From a virus, in IMG/VR virus record IMGVR_UViG_3300031758_000040, positions 16,464-80,463 of that record: a stretch of 64,000 nt of DNA; one strand, written 5' to 3'. Below are positions 260 to 61,753 of the stretch, one piece after another. A model generated the notes under the pieces. That model ran no database searches, had not been told where the DNA came from, and worked only from the letters and a program-made list of their open reading frames with translations. The position numbers and the translations under genes were made by a program. Position 1 is the stretch's first letter; each line of letters begins with the position of its first letter.

Positions 260-1246
260 TTATCTCTTGTTCTTCATGAACTGATTGAAGTTCCAAACGA
301 CTGATTCGTTTGCAAGCTTTCCTTGAAGCTTTTCTTTCTTCTTCTCAAGACGATCTACCTTTTTCTCTGCTCTTTTTTCCTGGCGAAGATCCTTGACCTC
401 CTGTTTTAGGGAGGATACTTTGTCCTTGGCACTAGGAGCAGCGGCTTTAGTTGCCGTAGTAGTTGAAGCAGTTCCAGTCTGAGCAGCCTCCTTAAAGTTC
501 TGTTTAAGGTAGGTGGTCAAGTCATTCGCTGTGGTGAAAGACTTTGATGAGATCATGTCAGATAGGCTCTTTATGTATGCCTTGATTCCCTCAGCAGTTG
601 TCGCAGCTGACTTTGCAACTCCCAACTTTGCAGATAACTGGTCAGCTATCTTTCTCAGGTCGTCCACTGATGTGATCGATTCGCTCTGGGTCGCCACTGT
701 CGATGCGATAGTCTTTAGAGAATTAAGGCTTGTTGCGTCCACCGCACTGATGTTTGAGATGATCGTTGCGGGCTCGACCTTGGCTGCCTCTGCCTTCTTC
801 CCAGTTACAGTGACTTCCGGTCCAGTTGTGGATCCCTTGACAGGTTCCTCAAAGGTCGCATTTGCCTTGATGAAATCGATGGAAGGTTTTTCCTTAGCCT
901 CGATAAAATCCTTGTCGTCCTTGCCCTTATAATAGTACTTGCCTCCCTCCATCTTAAACTCGTAGTTCGGGTCCTTGGACTTGCCGATCACCGCGCCGGT
1001 TGCTGTAGCGGGAGTTGTTGTAGTAGACGGTGTAGCTGAGAAAGTCACTTGGTCCTTGATTGCCTTGATGGCAGTGTCCTTTACTGCAGGGGTCCAGTTA
1101 GCGTCCCCAGGTTTCTTAAAGAAGTACTTGTCTCCCTCCTTTTTGTATTCGTATGTATCCTTAGGATTCTTGGTGTTCTTTCCCGTCTGGGCCTCGTCAG
1201 CCTCGTTAAGTCGTAACCAATACTTGTTAAAGTCTATGTAACTCAT
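260..1246 (-). CDS. Tagged internal/structural protein with coiled-coil C-terminus (paralogue 1)
   Basis: A 328-residue protein. The N-terminus (FNKYWLRLNE) ends in LNE, which fits the T4 prohead-protease consensus (I/L)-x-E. A YEYKKEGDKYFFKKPGD-type segment appears twice (about residues 32 and 95). A Thr/Ala-rich linker and a basic, probably coiled-coil tail (about 270-310) follow, and the last residues (WNFNQFMKNKR) echo the tag motif. It is paralogous to the 1608-2417 product at both ends. It shares the minus-strand operon and late promoter near 2440. Inference: packaged capsid protein; no enzymatic domain recognised. Confidence 0.9.
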   Translation of the reverse strand: MSYIDFNKYWLRLNEADEAQTGKNTKNPKDTYEYKKEGDKYFFKKPGDANWTPAVKDTAIKAIKDQVTFSATPSTTTTPATATGAVIGKSKDPNYEFKMEGGKYYYKGKDDKDFIEAKEKPSIDFIKANATFEEPVKGSTTGPEVTVTGKKAEAAKVEPATIISNISAVDATSLNSLKTIASTVATQSESITSVDDLRKIADQLSAKLGVAKSAATTAEGIKAYIKSLSDMISSKSFTTANDLTTYLKQNFKEAAQTGTASTTTATKAAAPSAKDKVSSLKQEVKDLRQEKRAEKKVDRLEKKKEKLQGKLANESVVWNFNQFMKNKR

Positions 1247-1258
1247 CTCTTCCTGTTT

Positions 1259-1603
1259 TTAATCTTCTTCGCCCTCGACTCTTCCCCAGACGTCTCCGTA
1301 GGTCGGGTTGCGAGTGTATTCAAATTCCGAGCGTGCCTCGTACTTTAGGTCCTTAATATAGTCTTCCAAGTATTGGATCACCTGCTCTATTCGAGCGATT
1401 CTCTGCTTGGGACTCACCTTGCGACTTAACCTGTGCTCCTGTGAAAGATAGCCACGTTCGTTCCTGTCACTGGTCGCCTCTCGCTCATCATTACCGAAGA
1501 GCATCTCGTCCAGTTCTCGACGCAGGTTAGAAAGTTCCTTCTGACCTAGACCCATCTCCCTCTCATTGAGAAAACCGACATATGACTTTACTTGATTCTT
1601 CAT
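1259..1603 (-). CDS. Tagged hypothetical protein (MKNQVKSYVGFLNE)
   Basis: A 114-residue, charged, probably helical protein. Its first 14 residues are a clear copy of the recurrent tag (MK....KSF..FLNE type) with a candidate cleavage site after FLNE. It lies between the two paralogues at 260-1246 and 1608-2417 with short spacers, so it is probably co-transcribed. No domain recognised beyond the tag. Confidence 0.9.
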   Translation of the reverse strand: MKNQVKSYVGFLNEREMGLGQKELSNLRRELDEMLFGNDEREATSDRNERGYLSQEHRLSRKVSPKQRIARIEQVIQYLEDYIKDLKYEARSEFEYTRNPTYGDVWGRVEGEED

Positions 1604-1607
1604 CTTA

Positions 1608-2417
1608 TTAAAACTTATTTTTAAACTTAACGAACTGTGCGAAAGAGTACACGCTAGATTCAGAGGTCATCTTGCCCTCAAGTCGTTCTTTTCTCTTCTC
1701 AAGCCTTTCTAACTTCTTCTCTACTCGAGCGTCCTTTCTAGCGGACCTTAGTTCTTCTTTGGCGGCCTGTATCTCCTTTTTCAACTGATCTACCTCCTGT
1801 TTGGGAGTAGTAGGTGTAGTCGCCGTAGTAGTCGCAGTGGAGTCAGGTGTCGTAGTAACAGCGGCAGTTGTCGTCGCAGTCGTTGAGGTAGTCATGGTGG
1901 CTGCTCCCTTCCAGAAAGGATTGTCTAACACGCCAGCGGGTTTTGCTGCCGGGTCAAAGTCAAAGCCCGTCGAAAAGTTAGGGTCATCTTCCTGTGAGTA
2001 GTTGAACATCGTCTTGCCCATCACGTCCTCAGAGTACCTCAGCTTTCCCTTGTCGTCAAGGAAATAGTTATTGTATTGGTCTACCATCGCGAAAGGATAC
2101 TCAGAGATGAGCACCTTTACCCACTCAGGTCGAGTGACTGCCAGCCTGTTCTTAGCGACATCGCCGGTAAGAAACTCCTCAGTTGGGGTAACATCAGCCG
2201 CCTTAAACTCTATCTGGCTCTCGATGGAACTGATCATTCCAGAGTCTGTCACCTGGATCCAGTTCTCGCTTCCCTTCTTGCGAGTATAATAGGCCCAACT
2301 ACCCTCCGCTCCCTCTCTCTTGTACTCGTAGGGGTCGGTCGGGTTCACCGTGTTCGTACCAGTCTCCTCGGCCTCATTGAGACCGAACCAGTACCTATTA
2401 AAATCAGGATAGTCCAT
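1608..2417 (-). CDS. Tagged internal/structural protein with coiled-coil C-terminus (paralogue 2)
   Basis: A 269-residue paralogue of the 260-1246 product: same FNRYWFGLNE start, same PYEYKREG segment, a Thr/Ala low-complexity linker (about 174-205), a KKEIQ..RKER basic coiled coil and an ending (YSFAQFVKFKNKF) that again resembles the tag. First gene of the operon behind the late promoter at 2439-2447. Probable packaged capsid component; function otherwise unknown. Confidence 0.9.
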   Translation of the reverse strand: MDYPDFNRYWFGLNEAEETGTNTVNPTDPYEYKREGAEGSWAYYTRKKGSENWIQVTDSGMISSIESQIEFKAADVTPTEEFLTGDVAKNRLAVTRPEWVKVLISEYPFAMVDQYNNYFLDDKGKLRYSEDVMGKTMFNYSQEDDPNFSTGFDFDPAAKPAGVLDNPFWKGAATMTTSTTATTTAAVTTTPDSTATTTATTPTTPKQEVDQLKKEIQAAKEELRSARKDARVEKKLERLEKRKERLEGKMTSESSVYSFAQFVKFKNKF

Positions 2418-2438
2418 TTTCTGTGATCTTATTTTTTT

Positions 2439-2724: not shown

Positions 2725-3258
2725 TTAATAAGAGAGCTCGACAGTTGCCCAGAGCAGCGAGTGCATGTACTGTTCCCAGTCGTCGTGCACGTCGTAGAAT
2801 TCGTCAGTGAGCCGGAGCCACACTTTCTCCGAGAGAGACCACTCGCGACCACCATCTCGGATCGTGTTCCAGTCGGGACCCCACACGTCACGGTCACCCC
2901 AATAGAAGTGCACCCGTGCCCCACTAGAGAGCACCAGGTCCAGGTCAAATCCTTCCTCTTCAAGCTTGCCGGTTGCCATGATTATCCGTTCTCCCTTGCG
3001 ACCCTGCCAGTCCAGCAGCCACTCCTTGGCGGGATCTAGCTGATCGTCGTCCAGGTATTCATCAGGGGTTATGTCAAAAAGGATATCGCCGGGTTCTAAA
3101 AGCTCTAAGGGATCGCGGCCCTCCTCCTTGGCCATGGTGACCAGGTCCTGCAAGTATTCATCGTGACCTATGAGGCCCAGCTCCCTAAGCCGCTTGAGCT
3201 TGGTCAGGAACTCTGGCTGCTCGTTCTCGTTGATGAATTGAGTAAATGACTTTATCAT
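2725..3258 (-). CDS. Tagged hypothetical protein (MIKSFTQFINE)
   Basis: A 177-residue acidic protein that opens with one of the best tag copies (MIKSFTQFINE, candidate cut after FINE). Residues 18-40 (LKRLRELGLIGHDEYLQDL) resemble the equivalent segment of the 31117-31692 product, suggesting a distant paralogy. It follows the 3262-3831 gene by three bases and is therefore probably translated from the same late transcript. Confidence 0.9.
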   Translation of the reverse strand: MIKSFTQFINENEQPEFLTKLKRLRELGLIGHDEYLQDLVTMAKEEGRDPLELLEPGDILFDITPDEYLDDDQLDPAKEWLLDWQGRKGERIIMATGKLEEEGFDLDLVLSSGARVHFYWGDRDVWGPDWNTIRDGGREWSLSEKVWLRLTDEFYDVHDDWEQYMHSLLWATVELSY

Positions 3259-3261
3259 GGC

Positions 3262-3831
3262 CTAGCCGTAGAAATTAAAAATGGTTGAGTCCTGATCCCA
3301 GTCGTGGTAAGTCTGGTGCTGATAAGGATCTGAGTTTACTCTAATCTTAGTCAAGGTGCCGATCGTTGGAAAAACGGCAGTGACTCCGTTCATGAAGAAA
3401 TCCTCACTGTCGTCTTCCGGATAGTTTGGATTCTGTTGCTCATAGCTCCATACTTCTATCCACTGATCCGTGTCCTGGTCGTAAAGCTCTATGCTATAGG
3501 TACAGGACGTGTCATCGCCGTGAACGTGACCGTTAGCTGACCCTGAACTTATCGTGAGCTTGCTTACACCAGAGATGGGTGCAAATTCTTCGGTCTCCCA
3601 AAACTCAAAGGAACTATAATCGTCTCCTTCAGAGCCGAGCCCTTCGGGTGCGACCACTAGCCAGTCAACCGAGCCTACCAGAGTAAGAGGGCTCGATATG
3701 CTCCCGCCACCGACTCCTCCCTGAGACTGCATCTTGATTCTTACGGCCTGTTCAAATAGAGCATCCTGTTCCAGTCGAGCCCTAATTGCCTTTTGTTCGG
3801 AGGTCTCCTCTCCCCAGTTAATGAATGACAT
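3262..3831 (-). CDS. Virion surface/fibre-type protein with MSFINWG module
   Basis: A 189-residue protein whose first ~40 residues (MSFINWGEETSEQ, then RLEQDALFEQAVRIKMQSQG) are nearly identical to the N-termini of the products at 33449 and 44852. A glycine-rich hinge and a unique beta-rich C-terminal domain with His/Asp clusters follow. A conserved N-terminus with exchangeable C-termini is typical of modular tail or head decoration proteins (inference). Late promoter at 3841-3858. Confidence 0.9.
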   Translation of the reverse strand: MSFINWGEETSEQKAIRARLEQDALFEQAVRIKMQSQGGVGGGSISSPLTLVGSVDWLVVAPEGLGSEGDDYSSFEFWETEEFAPISGVSKLTISSGSANGHVHGDDTSCTYSIELYDQDTDQWIEVWSYEQQNPNYPEDDSEDFFMNGVTAVFPTIGTLTKIRVNSDPYQHQTYHDWDQDSTIFNFYG

Positions 3832-4068: not shown

Positions 4069-4344
4069 TTAAAACTCGCCAAAATTATCCCTAAGCCAGG
4101 TGTTTATTTTCTCCCTAAGACACTTATCCACCTCTTCAAGGTTAGGAAAGGGTCTTGCATATATTCCAGGAAGCTGATTCCTTAGAAACTGAGAGTAGTC
4201 TTTGCCGTATGGTGTGTGTTCCCTACCCATCTTCTTTTGGGACTCAAGAGCGACTAGTAATTTCTGCCACGATCGGTCACAGATTTCCTGTATAGAATTG
4301 GACTCGTTAACCCATTGGCTAAAACCTTTTACTCTATTCTTCAT
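4069..4344 (-). CDS. Tagged hypothetical protein (MKNRVKGFSQWVNE)
   Basis: A 91-residue protein beginning with a textbook tag, MKNRVKGFSQWVNE, and candidate cut after VNE. The remainder is charged and helical without a recognised fold. It is a single-gene late unit with TATAAATAATAAT upstream and a terminator at its 3' side. Confidence 0.9.
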   Translation of the reverse strand: MKNRVKGFSQWVNESNSIQEICDRSWQKLLVALESQKKMGREHTPYGKDYSQFLRNQLPGIYARPFPNLEEVDKCLREKINTWLRDNFGEF

Positions 4345-5640: not shown

Positions 5641-5864
5641 AATCTTCGCATGTCAGCAACGTGTCCGTAATAGTCTTTTGCTATGCGATTGACTATTCTC
5701 ATGAATTCGTCCTCGCTCATCATGTCGTCAGACTCGTCAGAATTGATCAGTGCCAAGAGACCGCTTTCTATTTTCTTTTGAGCTGTGCTGTCAACTCCTT
5801 GTCGTCGTGACTCGTTTACTTCTTCCTTAATAAAGCTGTTGAAGTTTCTGACTCTATTTTTCAT
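5637..5864 (-). CDS. Tagged hypothetical protein (MKNRVRNFNSFIKE)
   Basis: A 75-residue protein with the N-terminal tag MKNRVRNFNSFIKE (IKE fits the cleavage consensus), followed by a short acidic helical body. It has its own late promoter and lies opposite the early genes. Function unknown; probably packaged. Confidence 0.85.
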   Translation of the reverse strand: MKNRVRNFNSFIKEEVNESRRQGVDSTAQKKIESGLLALINSDESDDMMSEDEFMRIVNRIAKDYYGHVADMRRF

Positions 5865-6009: not shown

Positions 6010-6057
6010 CTCTCCCGAATCCTTATTGTCCAGGTTGGCGGATAATGGTTATATTTA
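6010..6057 (+). promoter_or_regulatory. Early promoter for 6082
   Basis: CTCTCCC 6010, TTG 6026, TATATTTA 6050, then the TAACTTAAAA leader. Box-to--7 distance 40. Confidence 0.8.
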
Positions 6058-6081
6058 ACCATAACTTAAAAGCTAAAAGAG

Positions 6082-6243
6082 ATGAAAGGAACAATTGTGT
6101 TTATCGTGTCAGTGATTGGAATGGTGCTCCTAGCGGGAGGCAATGACTGGGGAATGGTTGGAATCTTTCCAGCGTTGTGGTACCTGTTGAAGGAGGACTT
6201 TAGAGAAGTAGATGCTAAGAAGGGCGGGTCTCCTAGGTTTTAA
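6082..6243 (+). CDS. Small membrane protein (53 aa)
   Basis: An ATG directly after the early leader opens a 53-residue frame with one strong hydrophobic segment (about residues 4-20), a second weaker one (25-36) and a charged C-terminus. The 3' end of the gene contains the GTCTCC box of the next promoter and its stop codon is part of that promoter. Probably an inner-membrane early protein of unknown role. Confidence 0.75.
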   Translation: MKGTIVFIVSVIGMVLLAGGNDWGMVGIFPALWYLLKEDFREVDAKKGGSPRF

Positions 6244-6275
6244 TTGTCCAGATTGAAAAAAGATTATTATATTTA
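6228..6275 (+). promoter_or_regulatory. Early promoter for 6299, inside the preceding gene
   Basis: GTCTCC 6228, TTG 6244, TATATTTA 6268; distance 40. The box overlaps the last codons of the 6082-6243 gene. Confidence 0.8.
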
Positions 6276-6298
6276 CTTATAACTTAAAAACAAAAAGG

Positions 6299-6442
6299 AT
6301 GAAGACTTTAGAATTAGTGACTTTAAGAGCTTTACAGGTGGCAAGCTTTGTGTTGGGTACGATGGTGATAGTTGCAATAGGCTACGCTGCCTTTCAGATA
6401 GCGACAGGTAACGTGCACGGCACTGCAAGCTTCGAGTTCTAA
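6299..6442 (+). CDS. Small single-span membrane protein (47 aa)
   Basis: A 47-residue frame with one hydrophobic stretch (about residues 14-34) starting right after the early leader and ending before a strong terminator. Second in a run of three consecutive small membrane-protein cassettes; function unknown. Confidence 0.75.
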   Translation: MKTLELVTLRALQVASFVLGTMVIVAIGYAAFQIATGNVHGTASFEF

Positions 6443-6473
6443 GCAAGATACTCCGTTTATTGGTTAATCGGTG

Positions 6474-6502
6474 ACGGGTCCCAAAAGGACCCGTATTTTT
6501 TT
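6474..6502 (+). terminator. Intrinsic terminator after 6299-6442
   Basis: ACGGGTCC / GGACCCGT stem with a CAAAA loop and a run of T. Confidence 0.85.
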
Positions 6503-6529
6503 GTCCACTTGCCTGTGCCGATCGGATGG

Positions 6530-6577
6530 GTCTCCTGACTTTTAATTGTCAGGTTTGGAAAGAAATGATTATATTTA
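6530..6577 (+). promoter_or_regulatory. Early promoter for 6602
   Basis: GTCTCC 6530, TTG 6546, TATATTTA 6570; distance 40. CCTGAC/GTCAGG form an inverted repeat around the -33 region, as also at 8161. Confidence 0.85.
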
Positions 6578-6601
6578 TACTATAACTTAAAAACAAACAA
6601 G

Positions 6602-6736
6602 ATGAAAAAAAGATCAGCAATCGTTGAAACAGTGGCAGCAGCATGGATGGTAACAGTAATCGGCACGGCGTTCATAGGCTTAGCCATCGCGATCGTTAAC
6701 CTCATAATCGGCAACTACATCTACCCTTACTTCTAA
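6602..6736 (+). CDS. Small membrane protein (44 aa)
   Basis: A 44-residue protein that is almost entirely hydrophobic between residues 7 and 38, in a complete promoter-gene-terminator cassette. Likely a membrane-inserted early peptide; role unknown. Confidence 0.75.
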   Translation: MKKRSAIVETVAAAWMVTVIGTAFIGLAIAIVNLIIGNYIYPYF

Positions 6737-6766
6737 GGGGTAGAGCCCTTCCTGAATCCCAAACTA

Positions 6767-6796
6767 ACGGAGCTCCAAAGGCTCCGTATTTTTTTG
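6767..6796 (+). terminator. Intrinsic terminator after 6602-6736
   Basis: ACGGAGC / GCTCCGT stem, seven-base loop, then a T run. Confidence 0.85.
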
Positions 6797-6799
6797 TTA

Positions 6800-6905
6800 A
6801 AACCTTTTCCGGAGACGAGATATAAGAAGACATCTACAGGTCAAAGGTTGAGCTCGGAAAAAACTACCTCTTTTTCTGGACTCAGCCTTTTTCTTTGCTC
6901 TGTTA
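6800..6905 (+). ncRNA. Candidate short transcript from a TATAAG promoter
   Basis: AAACCTTTTCCGGAGACGAG precedes TATAAG (6821-6826), the same block as near 4950 and 10114. No ORF follows; GGTTGAG and CTCAGCC can pair and are followed by TTTTTC. It may be a small RNA of about 60-70 bases. Tentative. Confidence 0.3.
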
Positions 6906-6911
6906 TACAGG

Positions 6912-6959
6912 GTCTCCCCAATTTTAGTTTTCAAGTTTGAAAAATAATAGTTATATTTA
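6912..6959 (+). promoter_or_regulatory. Early promoter for 6983
   Basis: GTCTCCC 6912, degenerate -33, TATATTTA 6952; distance 40. Preceded by TGTTATACAGG, which recurs upstream of two other early boxes (near 7211 and 19005). Confidence 0.75.
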
Positions 6960-6982
6960 CTTATAACTTAAAAACAAACAAG

Positions 6983-7162
6983 ATGAACACATCACAAATC
7001 AGAGCAGAGATCGTGGAGTTAATAAACTCAGGAATGTTAAACGTTCCCAAGATAGTAAAATACTTTCGTGAGTATCGACCTGATGCAAGCCTAGAGACGG
7101 TTAGAGAGGAGGCAAAGGAGCTTGTTGCACAGGCGAGAGAGACCATCAAGCGCGGCTACTAA
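6983..7162 (+). CDS. Small helical hypothetical protein (59 aa)
   Basis: A 59-residue charged protein. Residues 8-28 could form a short helix-turn-helix-like segment (EIVELINSGMLNVPKIVKYF), but this is not strong enough to call a regulator. Single-gene early cassette closed by a terminator. Confidence 0.75.
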   Translation: MNTSQIRAEIVELINSGMLNVPKIVKYFREYRPDASLETVREEAKELVAQARETIKRGY

Positions 7163-7180
7163 GAACGGCCGTTTCTTTTG

Positions 7181-7204
7181 GACCCGAGCAATCGGGTCTT
7201 TTTT
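7181..7204 (+). terminator. Intrinsic terminator after 6983-7162
   Basis: GACCCGA / TCGGGTC with a GCAA loop and T6. Confidence 0.85.
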
Positions 7205-7220
7205 GATCCTGTTATACAGG

Positions 7221-7268
7221 GTCTCTCGGCTTTTAATTGTCAGGATTAGGAGAAAATTATTATATTTA
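7221..7268 (+). promoter_or_regulatory. Early promoter for 7295
   Basis: GTCTCT 7221, TTG 7237, TATATTTA 7261; distance 40. TGTTATACAGG precedes it. Confidence 0.85.
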
Positions 7269-7294
7269 TAGTATAACTTAAAAACATAAAAGAT

Positions 7295-7450
7295 ATGTGG
7301 AGCTTAAAATGTGATTATTACTTGAAGGAATTCTCAACGCTTTCGGAACTCCTAGATGACATCCTCTTCTCGGGAATGGATCCAAACTACGAGATTACTA
7401 GGGACGGCAGGGGGACGGGAGAGGATGCGTGGAGCTACTTCCAAGAGTAG
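7295..7450 (+). CDS. Hypothetical protein MWSLKCDY family, copy 1
   Basis: A 51-residue acidic protein starting MWSLKCDYYLKEF. It is a paralogue of the 10403-10558 product (same length; shared MWSLKCDY, SGMDPNYE and TRDG blocks), and the first 20 coding bases are identical. Not recognised. Confidence 0.75.
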   Translation: MWSLKCDYYLKEFSTLSELLDDILFSGMDPNYEITRDGRGTGEDAWSYFQE

Positions 7451-7471
7451 CCGAACCTGTAGAAACAAGAG

Positions 7472-7500
7472 AGGGAGCCCAAAAGCTCCCTTTTTCTTTT
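7472..7500 (+). terminator. Intrinsic terminator after 7295-7450
   Basis: AGGGAGC / GCTCCCT stem followed by TTTTCTTTTT and then directly by ACTCCGTAG. Confidence 0.8.
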
Positions 7501-7516
7501 TACTCCGTAGTGTAGA

Positions 7517-8107
7517 TTATCCGAAATACCTGTCCTCGAAAACCAGGAGATCCAGCTTAGAGCTGACATCAATCAGTTGTAAGGCGTTTAGTAGGTCTGA
7601 ATACTCGGAGACTTCTCCTACCTGGATGTCAACATACTCTTGAATAAAGTTGAACGTTGCGGGATGGTCTCTGAAGATCTCCTTCTGGTCATTGGAATAC
7701 TTTTGCAGGAGATTCCATTCTAGCTCGTAAGCCTGGTTGATCAGGTCGACTAGGCCAAGAAAGGCTCTCCCGGTCTCGACCGCGGGAATGTCTGGATATA
7801 GGTTCCATTGGGTAAGATAATCCTGAATCTTGAGAGCGTGCTCCAACTCTCCCGCTGCCTCCTTCTCAAAGAAAGCTGCCGCCTTTGGATAATTGACTCC
7901 CTTACACCAGTTAGCAGCGTTACGATAGAAGTAGTAAGCTGTGTACTCGTCTCCCAGTCTGGAGTTAAGAGTAAGCTCAATCTCTTTGGGTAAAGCCTTA
8001 GGCATGATCGGCTCAATGACCTTCTCGATCAGGGTCTCCATTGCTTTTGCGATCGGAGACTCTTCCTTATCGTTATCAAAAGACTTAAAGGTAATAAAAT
8101 CTTCCAT
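7517..8107 (-). CDS. Ferritin-like diiron protein with tag-like N-terminus
   Basis: A 196-residue protein. The four-helix ferritin fold is suggested by DEYTAYYFY (E54), EKEAAGELEHA (E87, H90 of the ExxH motif), YELEW (E128/E130) and QVGEVSEY (Q162, E165), the usual order of ferroxidase ligands. About 40 residues precede the core and include FITFKSF, which resembles the recurrent capsid tag but lacks a clear (I/L)-x-E. Ferritins oxidise and store iron. The gene lies against the early region and has a late promoter, so it is made with virion proteins. A non-iron ferritin-like role cannot be excluded. Confidence 0.85.
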   Translation of the reverse strand: MEDFITFKSFDNDKEESPIAKAMETLIEKVIEPIMPKALPKEIELTLNSRLGDEYTAYYFYRNAANWCKGVNYPKAAAFFEKEAAGELEHALKIQDYLTQWNLYPDIPAVETGRAFLGLVDLINQAYELEWNLLQKYSNDQKEIFRDHPATFNFIQEYVDIQVGEVSEYSDLLNALQLIDVSSKLDLLVFEDRYFG

Positions 8108-8119
8108 TTAATTTCTTGT

Positions 8120-8137
8120 TTATTTAAGTTATTTATC
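8120..8137 (-). promoter_or_regulatory. Late promoter of the ferritin gene
   Basis: Minus-strand GATAAATAACTTAAATAA upstream of the ATG at 8107, a close match to the late consensus. Confidence 0.75.
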
Positions 8138-8156
8138 GATGAATCTTTGGGGTCGC

Positions 8157-8204
8157 GTCTCCTGACTTTTAATTGTCAGGTTTGGAAAGAAATGCTTATA
8201 TTTA
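8157..8204 (+). promoter_or_regulatory. Early promoter for 8231
   Basis: GTCTCC 8157, TTG 8173, TATATTTA 8197; distance 40. Nearly identical to the promoter at 6530. Confidence 0.85.
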
Positions 8205-8230
8205 TATTATAACTTAAAAACAAAAAGAGT

Positions 8231-8419
8231 ATGAAAAAGTTTTGTGTATTGTTTCTTTCACGAGAAGATTGGGATGAGCCTGAAGTAGTTTTCGTTGATG
8301 CTGAGAGCGAAGATGATGCGTATATGCTCGGCCTTGAAAAGGTAGGATATACTGAGGAGGAGGTTGAAGAGATGCTAGATTATGGAAGCTATTCCATCGA
8401 AATCAAGGAGGTGGAGTAA
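8231..8419 (+). CDS. Small acidic hypothetical protein (62 aa)
   Basis: A 62-residue protein with a short beta-rich start (MKKFCVLFLSRED) and an acidic body. Its layout resembles the 24367-24582 product (both MKK-hydrophobic start, YTEEEVEEMLDY / YDEEVIDEL block, then a short strand), suggesting paralogy. No known domain. Confidence 0.8.
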   Translation: MKKFCVLFLSREDWDEPEVVFVDAESEDDAYMLGLEKVGYTEEEVEEMLDYGSYSIEIKEVE

Positions 8420-8437
8420 CATTCCAATTACTCTTTC

Positions 8438-8465
8438 AAGTGGGGACTTTTTAGTCCCCACTTTT
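8438..8465 (+). terminator. Intrinsic terminator after 8231-8419
   Basis: AGTGGGGACT / AGTCCCCACT perfect stem, T loop and T tail. Confidence 0.85.
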
Positions 8466-8482
8466 GGGTCTTGTTCAGGCGT

Positions 8483-8531
8483 GTCTCCCGACTTTTTCGC
8501 ATACAACTTATTAAAAAAATTATTATATTTA
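8483..8531 (+). promoter_or_regulatory. Early promoter for 8556
   Basis: GTCTCCC 8483 and TATATTTA 8524; distance 41, the only one off the 40/50/60 grid, and no clear -33 TTG. Confidence 0.7.
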
Positions 8532-8555
8532 ACTATAACTTAAAAACAAAACAAA

Positions 8556-8762
8556 ATGGTAAACGTAAAGCAAATCATGGAGAGCGCGAAAGCGGCATTG
8601 GTAAAAGGAGAAAGAGAAGCGGCAGCTGACTTCTTAAACAAGGGAATCGGTCTACTCGGCAACCTCACCCAGAAAGGAGTTGAAAAGGTTGACGGAGCGA
8701 GCATCGATCGTTGGAAGGAAAGGTTCTGGTTTCAACTAGAAGATAACCAATTACTTGAGTGA
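8556..8762 (+). CDS. Small helical hypothetical protein (68 aa)
   Basis: A 68-residue protein, probably two to three helices (MESAKAALVKGEREAAADFL is amphipathic). Complete early cassette with terminator. No family recognised. Confidence 0.8.
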   Translation: MVNVKQIMESAKAALVKGEREAAADFLNKGIGLLGNLTQKGVEKVDGASIDRWKERFWFQLEDNQLLE

Positions 8763-8786
8763 TTGGCGACGACCGCTTGGGTGAAC

Positions 8787-8813
8787 GGAAGGGCGAGAGC
8801 CCTTCTTTTTTTG
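8787..8813 (+). terminator. Intrinsic terminator after 8556-8762
   Basis: GAAGGGC / GCCCTTC with GAGA loop and T7. Confidence 0.85.
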
Positions 8814-8833
8814 AACCCATCTCAAGAATAGAG

Positions 8834-8848: not shown

Positions 8849-8857
8849 GAGACTCCA

Positions 8858-53738: not shown

Positions 53739-54665
53739 TTAAATATTAAAATATTTCTCAAAATTTGTGTAGGATCTAGGAGAAGAGATAAGAAAATCGT
53801 CAACGTCATTTGATCCAGTTAACGCAGTACTGATGGTCTTTTTTATGGGGTTGAGTTCAAATTCAACGAAATTTGCGTCATATTCCACGTTACTTATAGA
53901 TATGTCGACTATCTCATGCTCAGCATCAGTTATCTCAGTGTCTCCATCAGGCGGATTCATGTAATCTCCAGGATCATACCAACTAGAATAAGTCAAGTTA
54001 GATGAGATCTCTAAGTACAGGTCGCCCCTAGTGCTTGCACCCATTTCCTCTAATTCTTTGACTAGACTCGGATCTATAAATATGAATTGAATCTTTGCTT
54101 CATGCTCAGCGACAGTACTGTCTTCGTCAGGTTCGACGAGATCCATCGCGTCAGTCGCAGTCCATGAAAGAACGACAGCTTTCTTTTCTCCTCCGAATAT
54201 CGAATCTACTGCAGCTTTGACGAACTTAGCGTAAGTAGAGCCCCCTGCTGTCTGGTCAACTGACTCAAAGAGATAATCTGAACCGTCGATGTCGTCCCTA
54301 ACTCTGTCTAGTGCCTGTGAGATTGTAGTCTCTTTTAGTGTCTTCCAATGATATGGAGTCTTATTGTTATTCTTAACGATGCTTATCTTTCCTGGAGACT
54401 TCAAGTTTAGTGAATCCTTTAGTGACTCTTCACTCCTCCAGTTTATCTTCACTCCCTTCAGTCGATCTCCTTCTTTTATTATTCTATAGAACTGGTCTGA
54501 CATAAAGAGCATGGTTGCACCAGGTCTAAGCTCAGCAGAACTCATCACGTGACCTGCATACAACATCTTCTCCTTGTCCTTACCTCTAGGCTTTCCCTTG
54601 ATTAGGACTATTCCGTTTTGAAGAACTGACTCATTTATTGAGGAGTATGATTTAACGTGTTTCAT
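53739..54665 (-). CDS. Tagged hypothetical protein (MKHVKSYSSINE, 308 aa)
   Basis: The ATG at 54665 is chosen (MKHVKSYSSINES; a MN extension exists). The tag carries INE. The body is alpha/beta with a long acidic C-terminal half. Unknown; late promoter almost at the start codon. Confidence 0.86.
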   Translation of the reverse strand: MKHVKSYSSINESVLQNGIVLIKGKPRGKDKEKMLYAGHVMSSAELRPGATMLFMSDQFYRIIKEGDRLKGVKINWRSEESLKDSLNLKSPGKISIVKNNNKTPYHWKTLKETTISQALDRVRDDIDGSDYLFESVDQTAGGSTYAKFVKAAVDSIFGGEKKAVVLSWTATDAMDLVEPDEDSTVAEHEAKIQFIFIDPSLVKELEEMGASTRGDLYLEISSNLTYSSWYDPGDYMNPPDGDTEITDAEHEIVDISISNVEYDANFVEFELNPIKKTISTALTGSNDVDDFLISSPRSYTNFEKYFNI

Positions 54666-54719: not shown

Positions 54720-55460
54720 TTGAAAAATCGAGCTAGAAAATTTAGCGAGTGGATCAACGAAAAGGTTGAGTATCATAAGGATCTCTGTCCAAAGATATGG
54801 GAGGAAAATCAAATGAAGCCTGAGATCAGAAAGACTCTCTTACAGATAGCCAAGGACTTTTGGGAATCCTTAAAGCTCGATGTTCCGATCATTGACGTAC
54901 AGCTGACTGGCTCGTTGGCTAACTATAACTGGAATCGTGACTCTGACCTAGATGTTCACTTAATAGTTGATTTTTCACAAGTCGACTCAAACATCGATTT
55001 AGTAAGAAAGGCATTGGATGGTCAGAGATTTATGTGGAACCAACGGCATCCAGTAGTCCTTAGAGGACATGATGTGGAATGCTATGTACAACACAAAGAC
55101 GAACAACACACCGCTTCAGGTCTCTATTCTCTTCTTAAAGGAAAGTGGATAATAGTTCCACAATACAATCCTCCACAGATCGATCAAAAGGACGTTTCTG
55201 AAAAGAAGAGAGTGATTCAGGCAGAAGTAGAGATGATGAAGAAGAGAGCAAAGTCTATCTCCGGAATGGAAGCTAAGATCCTGTATGAGTATGTTGAGAG
55301 ACTCAAAAGGAAGGTATTAGCTGACCGGAAGTCAGGTCTTGCTTCAGGAGGAGAGTTCTCAGTCGAGAATTTAGTCTTCAAGGAACTAAGAAGGGAAGGT
55401 ACGATAGAAGAGATGATAGACTTAATGTCTGATCTCTATTCTAAAATCTATTCTGATTAA
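54720..55460 (+). CDS. Tagged nucleotidyltransferase (TTG start)
   Basis: The TTG start gives MKNRARKFSEWINE, a perfect long-form tag, which supports this start. The pol-beta-type nucleotidyltransferase motif follows: LTGSLANYNWN (G64-S65) and RDSDLDVHLIVDF (D76, D78), with VECYVQ as probable third strand. A helical C-terminal domain completes 246 residues. It could transfer a nucleotide to RNA, protein or small molecule. Confidence 0.9.
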   Translation: MKNRARKFSEWINEKVEYHKDLCPKIWEENQMKPEIRKTLLQIAKDFWESLKLDVPIIDVQLTGSLANYNWNRDSDLDVHLIVDFSQVDSNIDLVRKALDGQRFMWNQRHPVVLRGHDVECYVQHKDEQHTASGLYSLLKGKWIIVPQYNPPQIDQKDVSEKKRVIQAEVEMMKKRAKSISGMEAKILYEYVERLKRKVLADRKSGLASGGEFSVENLVFKELRREGTIEEMIDLMSDLYSKIYSD

Positions 55461-55486: not shown

Positions 55487-56398
55487 ATGCATAAGTACTT
55501 TAATTTTGCAAAGATATTCGAAGCTGAACAAGCGGGAGAGCCTCTAAGCCCAGAAGAAATGGGAACACCGGCCGCTCCAGAAGCGAGCGTGCCTAGCGAT
55601 TCGACTCAAATAAAAGCGAACGTTTCATCTACTGATGAACCTGCGGTCTTAAACTTTGAAGAGCTTGCGAAGACTCATATACTTGACTCTCTCTTCACAA
55701 AGGCGGAAGTTGAACAGTTAGAAAAAGACGGTACTCTACTCAAGCCTGATGCTAAGTTCATGAATAAGCAAACTTCATTAGATGTCGTTACTGTATCAAT
55801 GAAGATAAGTATAGCTGGAAAACAGACCACTGGTTCGCAAGACGATCCTGATGCGATCTCTTTTGTGATTAGTGATGAACAGTTTAAAGACATGAAGGAT
55901 GGAATGGTCGGAGGAACATACCAGTCTGAATTCGTTACTGGAGACACGTCTATTCCAGTAGCAGTACGATTTAACCTAGATCAATCCCTTGATGCTCAGC
56001 CAGTCGGCACTACTGGAGTCGCGCCTAGTGATAGTCAAGTTACTTCAGGAACTGTACCTGCTGCCCCAGTTGAAGGCGAATTGGATACTGCAACTCAACC
56101 TGGAGTACAGGAGTCTAGGGGAATCATGAGCTTCTCACAATTCGTAAATGAAGCTAAGAAAGACAAATGGATCGGAGGAGTTGTTGGAGACATGAAGAAG
56201 GGAGCTCTTCGCAAGGAAATGGGAATGAAAAAAGGTGAGAAGATGAATATATCTGACATCGATAAGAGCGAGGCAAAACTTAAGAAGAAGGACAAAGATA
56301 AAAAGAAACCTGGACTTCAGCTTGACAAGAAGGATGCTAAGACCCATAAGAGAAATACTCTAGCTAAGAACTTGATCAAGGCTTCTAAAGGAAAATAA
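55487..56398 (+). CDS. Tagged structural/core-type protein with internal tag (303 aa)
   Basis: MHKYFNFAKIFEAE opens it (IFE). Near residue 208 a second tag-like segment, RGIMSFSQFVNEAKKD, is followed by KWIGGVVGDMKKGALRKEM, a segment type common in T4-like phages, and a Lys-rich tail. It may be cleaved at both tags. Candidate prohead core component. Confidence 0.87.
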   Translation: MHKYFNFAKIFEAEQAGEPLSPEEMGTPAAPEASVPSDSTQIKANVSSTDEPAVLNFEELAKTHILDSLFTKAEVEQLEKDGTLLKPDAKFMNKQTSLDVVTVSMKISIAGKQTTGSQDDPDAISFVISDEQFKDMKDGMVGGTYQSEFVTGDTSIPVAVRFNLDQSLDAQPVGTTGVAPSDSQVTSGTVPAAPVEGELDTATQPGVQESRGIMSFSQFVNEAKKDKWIGGVVGDMKKGALRKEMGMKKGEKMNISDIDKSEAKLKKKDKDKKKPGLQLDKKDAKTHKRNTLAKNLIKASKGK

Positions 56399-56407: not shown

Positions 56408-56917
56408 ATGAGAAGACTTTACGAATGTGGATGCGGTTGTGGAGGAATGGACGGTGGTTGTATGCAGGAACCTGATAACTACATGTTCTTCGGAAACCTA
56501 AAGACCATAAAGAGACACATTGATGCGATGCTAGAAATGGATCCTCAAATGGTTGATTCAATCCTAAGTGACGGTCATGGTTGGGCGGTTGATCACATTG
56601 CTTCCTCACTAGACGATATCCAAGAGGTTGCAAACTTCCTAATGAGTACTCAACATCAAGGCGGAGAAAATCCTCTTGCTGGGCTCATGATGCAGGACAA
56701 CCCATTTAGTAAGTTAGCTAAGAGCTTTGAGAGTTTTACTGTGAATGAAGCAAAGAAGAAAGAAAAGATGAAAGCTGCCGCTAAAAAGAAGAAGCAAGAA
56801 GACCAGGACGGAGACGGGGATAACGACTATGCAGACGCTAAGCTTGCTCAATATAAGGCCGGTGGAATGGATAAGAAAAGAGCGATGATGCTCGCTAAGA
56901 AGTATAATCTTAAATAG
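56408..56917 (+). CDS. Protein with Cys-rich start, internal tag and EF-hand-like loop
   Basis: MRRLYECGCGCGG (LYE) starts the protein. KSFESFTVNEAKKKEKM lies near residue 112, and a DQDGDGDNDYADA calcium-loop-like stretch follows with a basic tail. 169 residues. The pattern mirrors 55487, its operon partner. Confidence 0.85.
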   Translation: MRRLYECGCGCGGMDGGCMQEPDNYMFFGNLKTIKRHIDAMLEMDPQMVDSILSDGHGWAVDHIASSLDDIQEVANFLMSTQHQGGENPLAGLMMQDNPFSKLAKSFESFTVNEAKKKEKMKAAAKKKKQEDQDGDGDNDYADAKLAQYKAGGMDKKRAMMLAKKYNLK

Positions 56918-58169: not shown

Positions 58170-58835
58170 ATGTCGGGTAGAGTTTTAAACTTTTTCGAAT
58201 TTTCTGACAAATATTCAACAGGAAATAGCGATCCATTGGGAGTGGATAACATGACAAGTGCTTCCTCAAACTTTGAAGAGGGATTTGATGATACAACATA
58301 CGATCAACCTGAATTAGGGCCAAAACGACCTGTTTCTGGTAATTATGAAGCAACACCGGCTGGTCCAGGAGAAGGAAGCGTTCCTGCATTCTCTCAAGGA
58401 GAAAGACCAGGAATGAATCCTCCAGAAGAAGAGGAAGAAGACGACTTTGAAGATGACGCTGAAGAAGTTGAAGAGGATGATGATGACTCTGGAAATCCTG
58501 AAGGAGACGAGACTGAAGAAGACGAGACTGAAGAAGAAAAAGTCGAAGAAAGCTTTAGACTAGTAAAGAGTTTTTCTAGATTCCTTAATGAATCATATGA
58601 TGGTTATTATGGAGAAGACGAAGATAGTGGTGAAGACTATGGAGCTAATCCTGATGACTATTTCGGGTATGGCGCAAACCCAGATGAGGATGAATATGGA
58701 ATGTATCCAGAGGATGAGGATGAATATGGAATGTATCCAGAAGAGGACTATTATTCTGAAGAAGAAGAGCAATTCTGCTCTAATTGCGGAGCAATGGGAG
58801 ACGAGTACGGTTATAGTTGTGGCTGTAACATGTAA
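58170..58835 (+). CDS. Acidic protein with tags, tandem repeat and Cys-rich end (221 aa)
   Basis: MSGRVLNFFEFSD is tag-like. Residues 85-125 are almost pure Glu/Asp; then SFRLVKSFSRFLNES is an internal tag (LNE). A tandem DEYGMYPEDE repeat and a CSNC ... CGC ending follow. Probably a prohead core/internal protein: in T4 such acidic proteins are common in the core. Confidence 0.85.
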   Translation: MSGRVLNFFEFSDKYSTGNSDPLGVDNMTSASSNFEEGFDDTTYDQPELGPKRPVSGNYEATPAGPGEGSVPAFSQGERPGMNPPEEEEEDDFEDDAEEVEEDDDDSGNPEGDETEEDETEEEKVEESFRLVKSFSRFLNESYDGYYGEDEDSGEDYGANPDDYFGYGANPDEDEYGMYPEDEDEYGMYPEEDYYSEEEEQFCSNCGAMGDEYGYSCGCNM

Positions 58836-58849
58836 TTAAAGAGTACTTA

Positions 58850-59461
58850 GTGAAGGAGATGATACCTATAATAATAGCATTCATAACAGGTGTGATAGGA
58901 CCAGTTCTTGTCATCTACATAAAGAATAAACTGGACAATTCTAAGCCGAAACCAGATATTGTGCTTGATGCACTAAAAGTCGGCGAACAGATAACGAATA
59001 AGATAGAGGCAATCCGGGAAGATTTTAAAGCTGACCGTGTGTGGATCATCCAGTTTCATAATGGAGGACATTTCTATCCCACTGGAAAGTCTATTGCTAA
59101 GTTTAGCATGCTATATGAGACTGTTGGAAGCGGTGCAAATTCTATTCAAACTAGCTTTCAAAACATACCAGTAAACCTATTTAGTCGGTCAATAAATCAG
59201 TTATTAGATAGGGATGCGATTGAGATACCTGATTTCAAAGATGAAAGTATTGCTACTTATGGACTAAAGTATGTTGCTGAAGAATCTGGTTGTAGGTCAG
59301 GGTACCTATTCTCTATCAAGAACATTGATGATAAGTTCATAGGAATAATGGGAATAGATTATACTAGAAAGAAGACTAAGCTTGATTCAGAGGATTGTGC
59401 TCATCTTAGGATTCATGCAAACATCATAGGCGGAGCTTTAATGAATCACCTAGGCAAATGA
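58850..59461 (+). CDS. GAF-domain membrane protein
   Basis: GTG start (an ATG at 58859 is also possible). One N-terminal membrane helix (about 4-25), then a GAF-like sensor domain (VWIIQFHNGGHFYPTGKS, GYLFSIKNIDDKFIGIMGID). No output domain. GAF domains often bind cyclic nucleotides or small ligands; co-occurrence with a phage cyclase is suggestive only. Confidence 0.82.
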   Translation: MKEMIPIIIAFITGVIGPVLVIYIKNKLDNSKPKPDIVLDALKVGEQITNKIEAIREDFKADRVWIIQFHNGGHFYPTGKSIAKFSMLYETVGSGANSIQTSFQNIPVNLFSRSINQLLDRDAIEIPDFKDESIATYGLKYVAEESGCRSGYLFSIKNIDDKFIGIMGIDYTRKKTKLDSEDCAHLRIHANIIGGALMNHLGK

Positions 59462-59931
59462 AAAGGCTAGTAGAGAGTTTTAAGGAGTTCATAACTTCAT
59501 CAGAGATCCATCAGAACCCAGGAGCTTGGGATTACTATGGTTCAAATCCTCGAAGATCATTAGGGTCCACTGAAAAAGTATCTTTTCCTGAGCTTAAAGT
59601 GTCTAGCATTAAAGCTAAGATTGATACTGGAGCAGATGGAACTTCAATCGACGCAAACGACATTAAAGTTAAAAATGGGGTTCTTTCATTTTGGATAAAA
59701 TCTCCATCTAATCGTCTAGAATTCTCAAAATTTGATAAAGTAAAGGTCAAGAATTCTTCAGGCAAGTCTGAGGACCGCTACCGAATTAGGACTATGCTTA
59801 AGATAGGGAATGACGAGATTAGGGTTCAGGTGTCTCTTACGGATAGAGGCAATATGAAATTTCCATGTATCATAGGTAAGAATGCAATCACTAAGGGTAA
59901 GTACATGGTTGACTTGAATGGGAAAAGATAA
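59458..59931 (+). CDS. Tagged retropepsin-like (RimB/Zn-protease-like) protein
   Basis: ATGA overlap with the GAF gene. MKRLVESFKEFITSSE is tag-like (LVE). KAKIDTGADGTSID contains the D-T-G-A motif of retropepsin-type aspartic peptidases (D56), and CIIGKNAITKGKYMVD the late conserved segment of the family related to RimB. 157 residues: one monomer, active as a dimer. Possibly a virion or assembly protease. Confidence 0.88.
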   Translation: MKRLVESFKEFITSSEIHQNPGAWDYYGSNPRRSLGSTEKVSFPELKVSSIKAKIDTGADGTSIDANDIKVKNGVLSFWIKSPSNRLEFSKFDKVKVKNSSGKSEDRYRIRTMLKIGNDEIRVQVSLTDRGNMKFPCIIGKNAITKGKYMVDLNGKR

Positions 59932-59940
59932 ACTTTGCTG

Positions 59941-60180
59941 TTAGTCTTCTTCATCAAAAAATGATCCGATTCTCCTTGCACTGATCGAATCGTATTCCCA
60001 ATTCAAGAGAACGTCATCAAGATCCTCATCGATCATCATTAACATCTGAATGTATGATTCACTATTGGAGCCTTGGCCTTCGACTATATTAGATCTAACT
60101 AACTCGATCTTCTTCAATATTTGTCCTTTTAATTCTTCTATAAGTGCAGCAGACGCTGCTGCTATCTCTTTTTCCTTCAT
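59941..60180 (-). CDS. Hypothetical protein (79 aa)
   Basis: A 79-residue acidic helical protein, convergent to 59458. Unknown. Confidence 0.82.
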   Translation of the reverse strand: MKEKEIAAASAALIEELKGQILKKIELVRSNIVEGQGSNSESYIQMLMMIDEDLDDVLLNWEYDSISARRIGSFFDEED

Positions 60181-60185
60181 GATTG

Positions 60186-60191
60186 ATTATA
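60186..60191 (-). promoter_or_regulatory. TATAAT-type promoter for 60180
   Basis: GAGATATAATCAATCATG, TATAAT six bases from the ATG region. Confidence 0.45.
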
Positions 60192-60216
60192 TCTCAAAAC
60201 AATCTACTGGTTTTTG

Positions 60217-60225
60217 AATAAATAA
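60217..60225 (+). promoter_or_regulatory. Late promoter AATAAATAA
   Basis: 27-35 bases before the ATG at 60252. Confidence 0.65.
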
Positions 60226-60251
60226 AGATATAAAATAATGTTTGTTACATC

Positions 60252-60707
60252 ATGAGGTACAATTCAATAAAAAGACTTTACGAGGCAGATGACGTTCAGC
60301 AAATGCCAACACAGCAAATGCAGCCTGCACAAGGAATGCCAGCGCCTGCTCCAATCCAACCACAAAGCGGAATGGACATACCAATGGAAGTTCCACAGCC
60401 TGCTGCTACTTCAATGGAAGAGATGCCAAATTTTTCTGATTCTCAGCCGGCTTTGCCTGAGGCTGATGTGATGAATCTTACAGTTAAGGAGCTTATGGAA
60501 AGATGTAAAAAGATCGATCCATTAGTTTGCATGGGACTTGAGAAATTCGTAGAGGAGAACAAGGAAGAGATCTTGGCCATGACTACTGGTGCAGAGGAGC
60601 CTACAATCGACGATAACACGGATATTACTTTCTCTAAGCAAGTAGAACCGCAACCTGCTGATTTTTCTCTAGACCAGCCTGCAAGTGATCTTAACTTTCC
60701 AGCATAA
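60252..60707 (+). CDS. Tagged Pro/Gln/Ala-rich protein (151 aa)
   Basis: MRYNSIKRLYEAD ends in LYE. A Pro/Gln/Met low-complexity region (15-65) and a short helical domain follow. Probably a head/internal protein; co-transcribed with 60711. Confidence 0.85.
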   Translation: MRYNSIKRLYEADDVQQMPTQQMQPAQGMPAPAPIQPQSGMDIPMEVPQPAATSMEEMPNFSDSQPALPEADVMNLTVKELMERCKKIDPLVCMGLEKFVEENKEEILAMTTGAEEPTIDDNTDITFSKQVEPQPADFSLDQPASDLNFPA

Positions 60708-60710
60708 AAC

Positions 60711-60980
60711 ATGAAGAGACTCACTGAAGGATTTGGTGCAAACACCATGGAAACGGATCCATTGGATCTAATCACAAGACCAGACATTCAGCGAGCAAAC
60801 TCATTGATGTTTTATCAAGGAGCGTCGGGCAAGGTACCAGCACACTGGAACAACTCTCCATTCTTATCTGGAGGAAGATTAACTAGTGCGTTTGGAGCAA
60901 ACCCAAAGGGATCTTCAAAGAATAAGGTCATGTCATATAAAGAATTTATTGATGCGACCAGAAGACACCAGAATAAATAA
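60711..60980 (+). CDS. Tagged small protein (MKRLTEGF, 89 aa)
   Basis: LTE in MKRLTEGFG is a possible cleavage site. The end contains KVMSYKEFIDATRR, again tag-like. Unknown. Confidence 0.82.
   Translation: MKRLTEGFGANTMETDPLDLITRPDIQRANSLMFYQGASGKVPAHWNNSPFLSGGRLTSAFGANPKGSSKNKVMSYKEFIDATRRHQNK
60971..60980 (+). promoter_or_regulatory. Late promoter GAATAAATAA at the end of 60711-60980
   Basis: Overlaps the stop codon; 16 bases before the ATG at 60996. Confidence 0.65.
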
Positions 60981-60995
60981 AAATAAAGCATACCG

Positions 60996-61310
60996 ATGTC
61001 ATCATACATAAAGAGCTTTAAGAGTTTTCAAAACGCGGCAGACAAGGCAGCTAAGGAAGTAGAAGCTGGTGCGAATCCTCAAATGGTAAAGGAGGAAGAC
61101 GCTGCTCTTACTGACCCTACGTTGATTGACCTTAGCACAAAGATTCAGCAGTATAAGAACCAAATAAACACTTGGGAAAGGGATATTGAGAATCGCAAAA
61201 AAGTATTAGCTGAAGAACAAAAGAAGAAGCAAGCTGCAACTCAAGCTGCTCAAGCAGCCGCACAAAAAGCAGCAGAAGCAGTTCCTCAACCTGCTACGCC
61301 GACCGCATAA
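60996..61310 (+). CDS. Tagged coiled-coil, Ala-rich protein (104 aa)
   Basis: MSSYIKSFKSFQNA is tag-like without a clear (I/L)-x-E. A coiled coil (about 45-85) and Ala/Pro tail follow. The stop overlaps the next ATG by one base. Confidence 0.82.
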   Translation: MSSYIKSFKSFQNAADKAAKEVEAGANPQMVKEEDAALTDPTLIDLSTKIQQYKNQINTWERDIENRKKVLAEEQKKKQAATQAAQAAAQKAAEAVPQPATPTA

Positions 61311-61753
61311 TGGAGAGAAAGATAAAGTCATATAATCAATTCATCAATGAAGCTACTAAGGAGGTGGTGTACCCTACTAATTTTAAGGGCATGGTACAAG
61401 GCGCGTTGGCTGGACTTTATTCTCAGATTATGGCTATAGCCAGAGAGCTCGCGAATGAAAAGGCTGCAAGAAATCCAAATCGATATAACGGCGACATACA
61501 GGAAGTCGATATCACTAGAGCGATGAACATGATCTTTCATAGCGATTGGAAGAAAAATATCAAGCAACAGGCCATAGATCAAGTGATGAGGAATTCTACT
61601 GGTCGTGCAGCTAAGCAGGATAATGTCGTCGCTAAGAAAAACCTAAGAGCGTTAGGTCGCTCAATGGGAGACAAAGACTTCAACCTCTCAATCGATAAGT
61701 CTAGCGTTAGATTTAGCGACGAGAAGGGAAGCGGAACAGGTAAAAATCAATAA
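61310..61753 (+). CDS. Tagged protein (MERKIKSYNQFINE, 147 aa)
   Basis: A classic long-form tag with INE, then a basic, helical protein. Coupled to 60996 and followed five bases later by the structural gene at 61759. Likely internal head protein. Confidence 0.87.
   Translation: MERKIKSYNQFINEATKEVVYPTNFKGMVQGALAGLYSQIMAIARELANEKAARNPNRYNGDIQEVDITRAMNMIFHSDWKKNIKQQAIDQVMRNSTGRAAKQDNVVAKKNLRALGRSMGDKDFNLSIDKSSVRFSDEKGSGTGKNQ

Follow-up and report, generated by a model that had tools for sequence, protein, structure and literature searches.

The window examined here, a 64,000-base stretch (bases 16,464-80,463) of the 80,463-base IMG/VR virus record IMGVR_UViG_3300031758_000040, comes from a freshwater phage that is kin to the huge phages; feature coordinates are window positions throughout. 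About 37 proteins of this record, with unrelated bodies, carry a common short tag in which an aromatic pair, [FY]xx[FWY], is joined to [ILV]-x-E, and which very probably acts, on a large scale, as a T4-like capsid-targeting propeptide. The most fitting interpretation is a version of the T4 capsid-targeting system that is an order of magnitude larger and also occupies internal and C-terminal positions; it has the look of a general cargo system in which each lineage uses its own dialect. An earlier reading of the bare letters by a model (the original prediction) had proposed T4-like capsid targeting and a general cargo system, and this proposal is supported by a residue-level match to T4, by the protease and capsid genes of related phages and by the detection of four out of five tagged proteins of cyanophage S-CREM2 in its virion. 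Internal tags, C-terminal tags, a third spacing class and the differing dialects of the lineages escaped that reading.

Tagged starts number about 30 within the window, as originally proposed for unrelated proteins with a common N-terminus, together with 7 in the 16 kb of the same record upstream of it. A strict pattern, aromatic-xx-aromatic followed by [ILVM]xE in either of two spacings, was tested on the 139 open reading frames (ORFs) of the record and starts 16 of them, against 0.6 in shuffled N-termini (maximum 4 in 200 shuffles). Because the longest frame was taken as the ORF, some starts are missed or misplaced, and with them some tags. The statement that nearly every tag ends in [ILV]-x-E agrees with a count of 34 in 37 candidate starts, which were picked by hand reading, compared with 30 of the 102 other ORFs, a large contrast. 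Most occurrences of [ILVM]xE behind the aromatic pair lie at offsets 0 and 2, other offsets being rare; a docking part combined with a cutting part would be expected to show just this, two separately conserved elements that can stand at either of two spacings. In all there are three spacing classes (I, II and III), each ending in [ILV]-x-E. Class III, [FYS]x[ILV][FWY]E (5 against 0.6 in the record), covers the shorter form of the original prediction, a real tag whose form is, however, [FYS]-x-[ILV]-[FW]-E, so that it likewise ends in [ILV]-x-E. A matrix trained on the record's tags, with its cut-off at the 1% interior threshold, finds 27-31 tagged ORFs in the record itself, a count that is partly circular because the same tags trained the matrix. 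Mean column identity over 130 tagged relatives is 4%, their bodies being unrelated. The starts named previously all exist and read as described, and most of the proposed members hold; those at 2482, 40996 and 56408 and the N-terminus at 60711 are weak, and 40996 and 2482 are not relied on here. The N-terminal tags of the window are as follows.

1202-1246 (-), MSYIDFNKYWLRLNE, class II, of ORF 260-1246
1562-1603 (-), MKNQVKSYVGFLNE, class I
2373-2417 (-), MDYPDFNRYWFGLNE, class II, of ORF 1608-2417
3226-3258 (-), MIKSFTQFINE
4303-4344 (-), MKNRVKGFSQWVNE
5823-5864 (-), MKNRVRNFNSFIKE
30635-30667 (+), MKHIVSYSLFE, class III, on a P-loop protein
31117-31149 (+), MKYIKSSRVWE, class III
31757-31810 (+), MKKHIKTFESFSQSRLDE
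32333-32374 (+), MKNYVKGFENHLNE
38852-38881 (+), MKYLKLYEQF
40861-40914 (-), MSHLLSFNSFTDQPRMDE
41258-41290 (+), MLNNFEDYINE, of ORF 41258-42724
46125-46157 (+), MKYLVSYPIWE, class III, on a class III nucleotidyl cyclase
46829-46867 (+), MKHVVLYESWMRE, retained in the ortholog in relative G2 as MKTYVQLFESWHREE
48799-48831 (-), MIKDFKTFVNE, of ORF 47152-48831
49652-49684 (+), MDFNYFISIFE, class III
51030-51074 (+), MKHILEYYNWVSLNE, class II, with an endolysin-like body
54630-54665 (-), MKHVKSYSSINE
54720-54761 (+), MKNRARKFSEWINE, on a nucleotidyltransferase; replaced or absent in other phages' homologs
55487-55522 (+), MHKYFNFAKIFE, class III, of ORF 55487-56398
58170-58202 (+), MSGRVLNFFEF, on a very acidic protein
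59458-59493 (+), MKRLVESFKEFI, on a protein with a retropepsin-like Zn_protease domain
60252-60284 (+), MRYNSIKRLYE
60996-61028 (+), MSSYIKSFKSF, lacking [ILV]xE
61310-61351 (+), MERKIKSYNQFINE, on the most conserved cargo

Starts reading 'MSFINWG' (3262, 44852 and inside 33380) were considered as tags and rejected, as they form a separate shared N-terminus. This second N-terminus, MSFINWGxExxEQxAxRxxxEQDALxEQAxR, occurs in 3262-3831 (-), inside 33380-35101 (+) and in 44852-45775 (+), as well as in G2, and looks like a common attachment domain.

The noted likeness to the start of the T4 internal proteins falls on the residues that matter in T4. Mutations of T4 IPIII have shown that residues 4 and 7 direct targeting and residues 8 and 10 processing (PMC9026906, section 2.6), and the features shared with the tag are these same residues, two aromatics three apart and [ILV]-x-E; an aromatic pair at the T4-equivalent targeting positions (4 and 7) is present in most tags. 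In the 46 orthologs of the 61310 protein the tag residue E14 is invariant (46/46) and Y8, F11 and N13 are kept in at least 90%, with the flanking tag residues varying. We consider it unlikely that targeting is real while [ILV]xE is left uncut, the tags serving as permanent docking peptides. The N-terminal tags at 60996 and 58170 lack [ILV]xE, INS or IND closes some of the C-terminal ones, and T4 tags with Asp at position 10 are still targeted but no longer cut (PMC9026906), all of which would suit such peptides; the excess of [ILV]xE in the tags, its fixed offsets and the conserved fusion joints described below argue instead for cutting.

Two further explanations do without any targeting. The first, that a functionless recent DNA cassette was copied onto many genes by 5' end duplication or recombination, has in its favor that a short module stands before unrelated bodies. 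Same-register tags, however, use an identical codon at 47% of their same-residue positions, where codon usage alone predicts 43%, and their upstream DNA is 34% identical. Tags in one register thus share residues without sharing codons beyond expectation and are therefore not recent DNA copies; since related phages also retain dialects of their own, we regard a cassette origin as very improbable.

The second holds that a shared start aids translation in the absence of Shine-Dalgarno sites, A-rich first codons giving Met-Lys-rich N-termini. Shine-Dalgarno sites are indeed missing from most upstream regions of the record, which, together with the kinship of its neck-like protein described below, makes a host from the Bacteroidota likely, and many starts are MK. 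This explanation nevertheless leaves the aromatic pair and [ILV]xE unaccounted for, and it is at odds with the invariance of E14, with the internal and C-terminal tags and with the untagged state of the same phage's presumed early genes. The latter lie in one block.

6049-24682 (+), block with 24 copies of the early-promoter-like element TTATATTTANNTATAACTTAAAAAC; its ORFs are untagged

The 24 copies of this near-identical 25-base element (0 expected by chance), most of them just upstream of small ORFs, lie between 6.0 and 24.7 kb, and the 16.5 kb upstream contain none. The element is likely to be an early promoter, such that the genes of the block would be early and the remainder late. Tagged ORFs number 0 of 48 in the block and 31 of 91 elsewhere (p = 2.6e-7); the tag is thus not found equally in the presumed early genes, an outcome that the original prediction had named as contrary to it, and we give the translational explanation hardly any credence.

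The tag had been described as N-terminal. The N-terminal copies are real, but conserved copies also occur at C-termini and within proteins, where they stand at fusion joints, and in most cases the tag is separated from the body by a cut-like site (marked below by a slash).

263-307 (-), C-terminal tag ESVVWNFNQFMKNKR of ORF 260-1246, with an E/S cut-like site upstream of it
1611-1661 (-), C-terminal tag ESSVYSFAQFVKFKNKF of ORF 1608-2417
42677-42721 (+), C-terminal tag EGLNVSFSAWLRLNS of ORF 41258-42724
47626-47664 (-), internal tag ESRFVMSFNEWID of ORF 47152-48831; at this point the ortholog in G2 terminates in a C-terminal tag
56111-56152 (+), internal tag ESRGIMSFSQFVNE of ORF 55487-56398, at a fusion joint
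56711-56749 (+), weaker internal tag-like sequence KLAKSFESFTVNE
58548-58592 (+), internal tag ESFRLVKSFSRFLNE, kept in relatives G1 and G2
60921-60977 (+), C-terminal tag NKVMSYKEFIDATRRHQNK, kept in G1 and G2

The internal tags are joints, as three comparisons show. In L029 and L030 the segment following the internal tag of ORF 55487 (...FVNE/AKKDKWI) exists as a free-standing protein that starts with a tag; 47152 has as an internal tag what its ortholog in G2 carries at the C-terminus; and a G1 protein contains internally the tag with which its ortholog in this record begins. The tags are therefore not restricted to the N-terminus in the manner of a T4-type capsid-targeting sequence. As T4 Alt is also processed at its C-terminus (PMC9026906), these copies are an extension of the T4-type class and do not exclude membership of it.

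The original prediction had suggested scanning related phages with a tag profile, and in four independent genomes the record-trained matrix exceeds expectation. It counts 14 tagged of 227 in G1 (207 kb; 2.3 expected), 21 of 201 in G2 (176 kb; 2.0 expected), 32 of 597 N-termini in LR756500 (462 kb; 6.0 expected) and 88 of 901 in LR756501 (735 kb; 9.0 expected), the last having some 60-90 tagged proteins. The same matrix fails on the T4 internal proteins, which the direct pattern detects (three strict matches in T4, two of them internal proteins), and therefore under-counts distant dialects. Such dialects are MKNxVKSFxxFINE in this record, MIKKFxxFINE and MIKKFKLFES in LR756501, MKYIKEYEEFLxE in LR756500, MKxFxxFLxE in cyanophages and MKT[LI][ST]xLYE[AS] in the jumbo phage PAU, which is available in culture. 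An unbiased count of N-terminal patterns gave no tag in Tenacibaculum phage PTm1. PAU (JQ362498) was rejected as a tag-free control because its tags belong to class III: about 20 proteins start with MK[TS][LI][ST]xL[YF]E or similar, for example 'MKTLSKLYEA', and tags of this dialect fill the operon around its portal, protease, scaffold-like and capsid genes (100248-120537). The mature PAU capsid protein has been shown by N-terminal sequencing to lack 65 residues (PMC5646251), and this processing point falls within one residue of an L-M-E. At a separate LR756501 locus, L121:2186-4193 (-), a row of four to five small proteins carries MI[KR]K[FY][RK][LI]FE followed by DPYGEE[EDI]W, and the DPYGEE part recurs elsewhere in that genome.

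The window closes on two genes that place it next to the head genes of its relatives.

61759-62493 (+), neck-like protein, whose homologs in PTm1 are annotated 'neck protein'
63304-63891 (-), C-terminal part of a portal-like protein, its putative function resting on gene order and homologs

Relatives of the neck-like protein occur in the huge uncultured phages LR7565xx (462-735 kb), in Prevotella Lak phages, in Tenacibaculum, Sphingomonas (PAU) and Chryseobacterium jumbo phages and in more than 80 IMG/VR contigs. The last ORF of the record is the end of the portal-like gene, which may continue past the contig end (560-608 aa in relatives), and the record therefore breaks off a short way ahead of the head genes. 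Relatives whose contigs extend this far, 8 of 20, have neighboring genes for an S77 (gp21-family) protease and a gp23 capsid protein. The relatives' protease is fused to a scaffold-like region of about ten exact tandem 14-residue repeats, Y-x-x-Y-[ILV]-A-E, to which, among annotated phages, highly similar sequences are limited to the huge-phage group LR7565xx/LR745206; T4 gp22 has no YxxYIxE repeats.

The resemblance of the YxxY[ILV]AE repeat to the tag core is suggestive only. We nevertheless raise the tentative idea, which we hold to be possible but not probable, that the tag is a single-unit imitation of this scaffold, in which each of the approximately ten repeats is a possible protease site and any protein bearing one would be built into the core and cut free, with the dialects co-evolving within each huge-phage lineage and allowing the open-ended injection of dozens of host-control enzymes. 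A matrix built from the repeats finds 11 tags against 2.2 expected in G1 and 28 against 8.3 in LR756501; as a proof of imitation it was set aside, as it gives no signal in this record (2 against 1.2).

Published virion data from cyanophages bear on where the tagged proteins go. Mass spectrometry detected 52 of the 219 S-CREM2 proteins in virions (PMC10665884, Table 3). The strict pattern starts 5 of the 219 (OR473000), and 4 of these 5 are among the 52 (p = 0.012): a SAM hydrolase, a kinase, a cytidylyltransferase and gp13. In S-SCSM1 (MK867354) the virion NMNAT starts MKSFLQFLKEA. A tag addressed to the tail or baseplate, a membrane or a replication compartment, as opposed to the head interior, could be proposed on the grounds that several tagged genes adjoin neck and baseplate-like genes and that virion mass spectrometry is blind to head versus tail. 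We judge such an address quite unlikely, since the tag matches residue by residue a T4 capsid-targeting sequence whose site of action is known, its [ILV]xE fits a prohead protease, the PAU tags surround portal, protease and capsid genes, and the SAM hydrolase and kinase of the S-CREM2 virion are tagged while its listed tail proteins have no match to the strict pattern.

Several observations weigh against capsid targeting in this phage. The S-CREM2 sample is small, and a looser pattern is not enriched (5/15, p = 0.27); a second clearly tagged S-SCSM1 protein went undetected in the virion, leaving one of two clear tags found; and virion mass spectrometry can neither tell head from tail nor rule out carry-over. 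The contig of the window phage breaks off ahead of its protease and capsid genes. In three of the tags listed above [ILV]xE is missing, and many tagged bodies have no known domain. The E/S or E/G, that is, a cut-like site between tag and body, which precedes several C-terminal tags was spotted after the fact, the base rate of E[SGA] in nine residues being 8.5%.

Taken with these points, capsid targeting of the T4 kind suggests the following model, in which packaging, cutting and injection are extended to this phage by analogy with T4 and with what has been published on the virions of other phages. Products of genes other than those of the early block would dock on the prohead scaffold core by means of their aromatic pair, and a gp21-type protease would then cut after [ILV]-x-E, between tag and body, leaving the mature protein in the head with the DNA for injection at the next infection. 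A C-terminal tag often has a cut-like site before it, and an internal tag would mark the joint of two fused cargo modules.

The candidate cargo is varied. The protein at 46125-46826 is a class III nucleotidyl cyclase (adenylate/guanylate cyclase domain, PF00211, E 9e-23), which, if injected, could act on cyclic-nucleotide signaling or defence. The 54720 protein is a nucleotidyltransferase (PF01909) whose homologs in Molly, S-CRM01 and DSL-LC03 are without this tag, and the tag is therefore modular; S-CREM2 gp156, present in the virion and untagged, resembles the S-CRM01 homolog as judged by eye. At 59458 there is a retropepsin-like Zn_protease domain (PF05618, E 4e-19), the 51030 body matches PHROG endolysin 873 (E 1e-11), and 30635 is a P-loop protein. 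The 130 tagged relatives include Nudix, PPK2, polynucleotide phosphatase, pyrimidine-dimer glycosylase, tRNA nucleotidyltransferase and methyltransferase proteins and leucine-rich repeats. The predicted fold of the 61310-61753 protein is all-helical (predicted local distance difference test, pLDDT, 75). We do not claim a histone H2B-like identity for it, as the top PDB fold matches have E values of about 1 and Pfam and PDB sequence profiles give no support.

Two other observations were made in these regions. A GAN[PST] motif (EAGANPQ, DYGANPD, FGANTMETD) recurs in small proteins near tags at 58170-61310, at 7798-15363 of G1 and in S-CREM2 gp12. In addition, G+C content peaks at 0.53 at 28700-30500, where ORF 29544-30236 (-) reads as a candidate IS607-type recombinase.

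Little is known of the proteins that huge phages inject, since few of these phages have been cultured and domains can be recognized in only a minority of their proteins. A predictor of head cargo that needs nothing but the letters would yield lists of candidate injected proteins even for genomes that metagenomes alone have revealed: here the class III nucleotidyl cyclase, the nucleotidyltransferase, the protease-like domain and dozens of unknowns, and in relatives Nudix, PPK2, methyltransferases and DNA-repair enzymes. The tags might also serve as ready-made addresses by which proteins of choice could be loaded into the heads of large phages. Moreover, the tag would account for cyanophage virion enzymes that their authors could not explain; the S-CREM2 study allowed that enzymes in the virion were possible contaminants and mentions no such tag (PMC10665884).

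The open-access literature that was searched, a scope without subscription papers, yielded no description of a tag of this sort outside the T4 relatives. The closest known system is the tag of T4 IPI, IPII and IPIII (MKTYQEFIAE) with its protease gp21, which is alike in being N-terminal, about 10-19 residues long and followed by unrelated bodies, in its two aromatics three apart and its final [IL]-x-E, and in that relatives of the window phage possess a gp21-family protease and a gp23 capsid. It differs in scale, with 3 strict matches against about 30 tagged proteins in the window and 60-90 in the 735-kb relative, and in form, as the window phage has internal and C-terminal copies and three spacing classes, and its relatives' protease is fused to the 14-residue-repeat scaffold-like region where T4 has separate gp21 and gp22. 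The cyanophages S-CREM2, S-CRM01 (HQ615693) and S-SCSM1 place MKxFxxFLxE-type tags on a kinase, SAM hydrolase, cytidylyltransferase and NMNAT, but have few tags per genome. In phiKZ and SPN3US a gp21-related protease likewise cuts after E, and large heads are packed with ejected proteins (PMC10052503). The propeptides of SPN3US are, however, mostly long (111-254 residues), with the motif A-x-E, approximately 80% of its head proteins are uncut, and a short shared tag is not described in that account of the two phages (PMC10052503). Finally, PAU shares with the window phage a short N-terminus ending in L-[YF]-E on about 20 proteins, many of them encoded around the head genes, while using another dialect and a protease unfused to a repeat scaffold.

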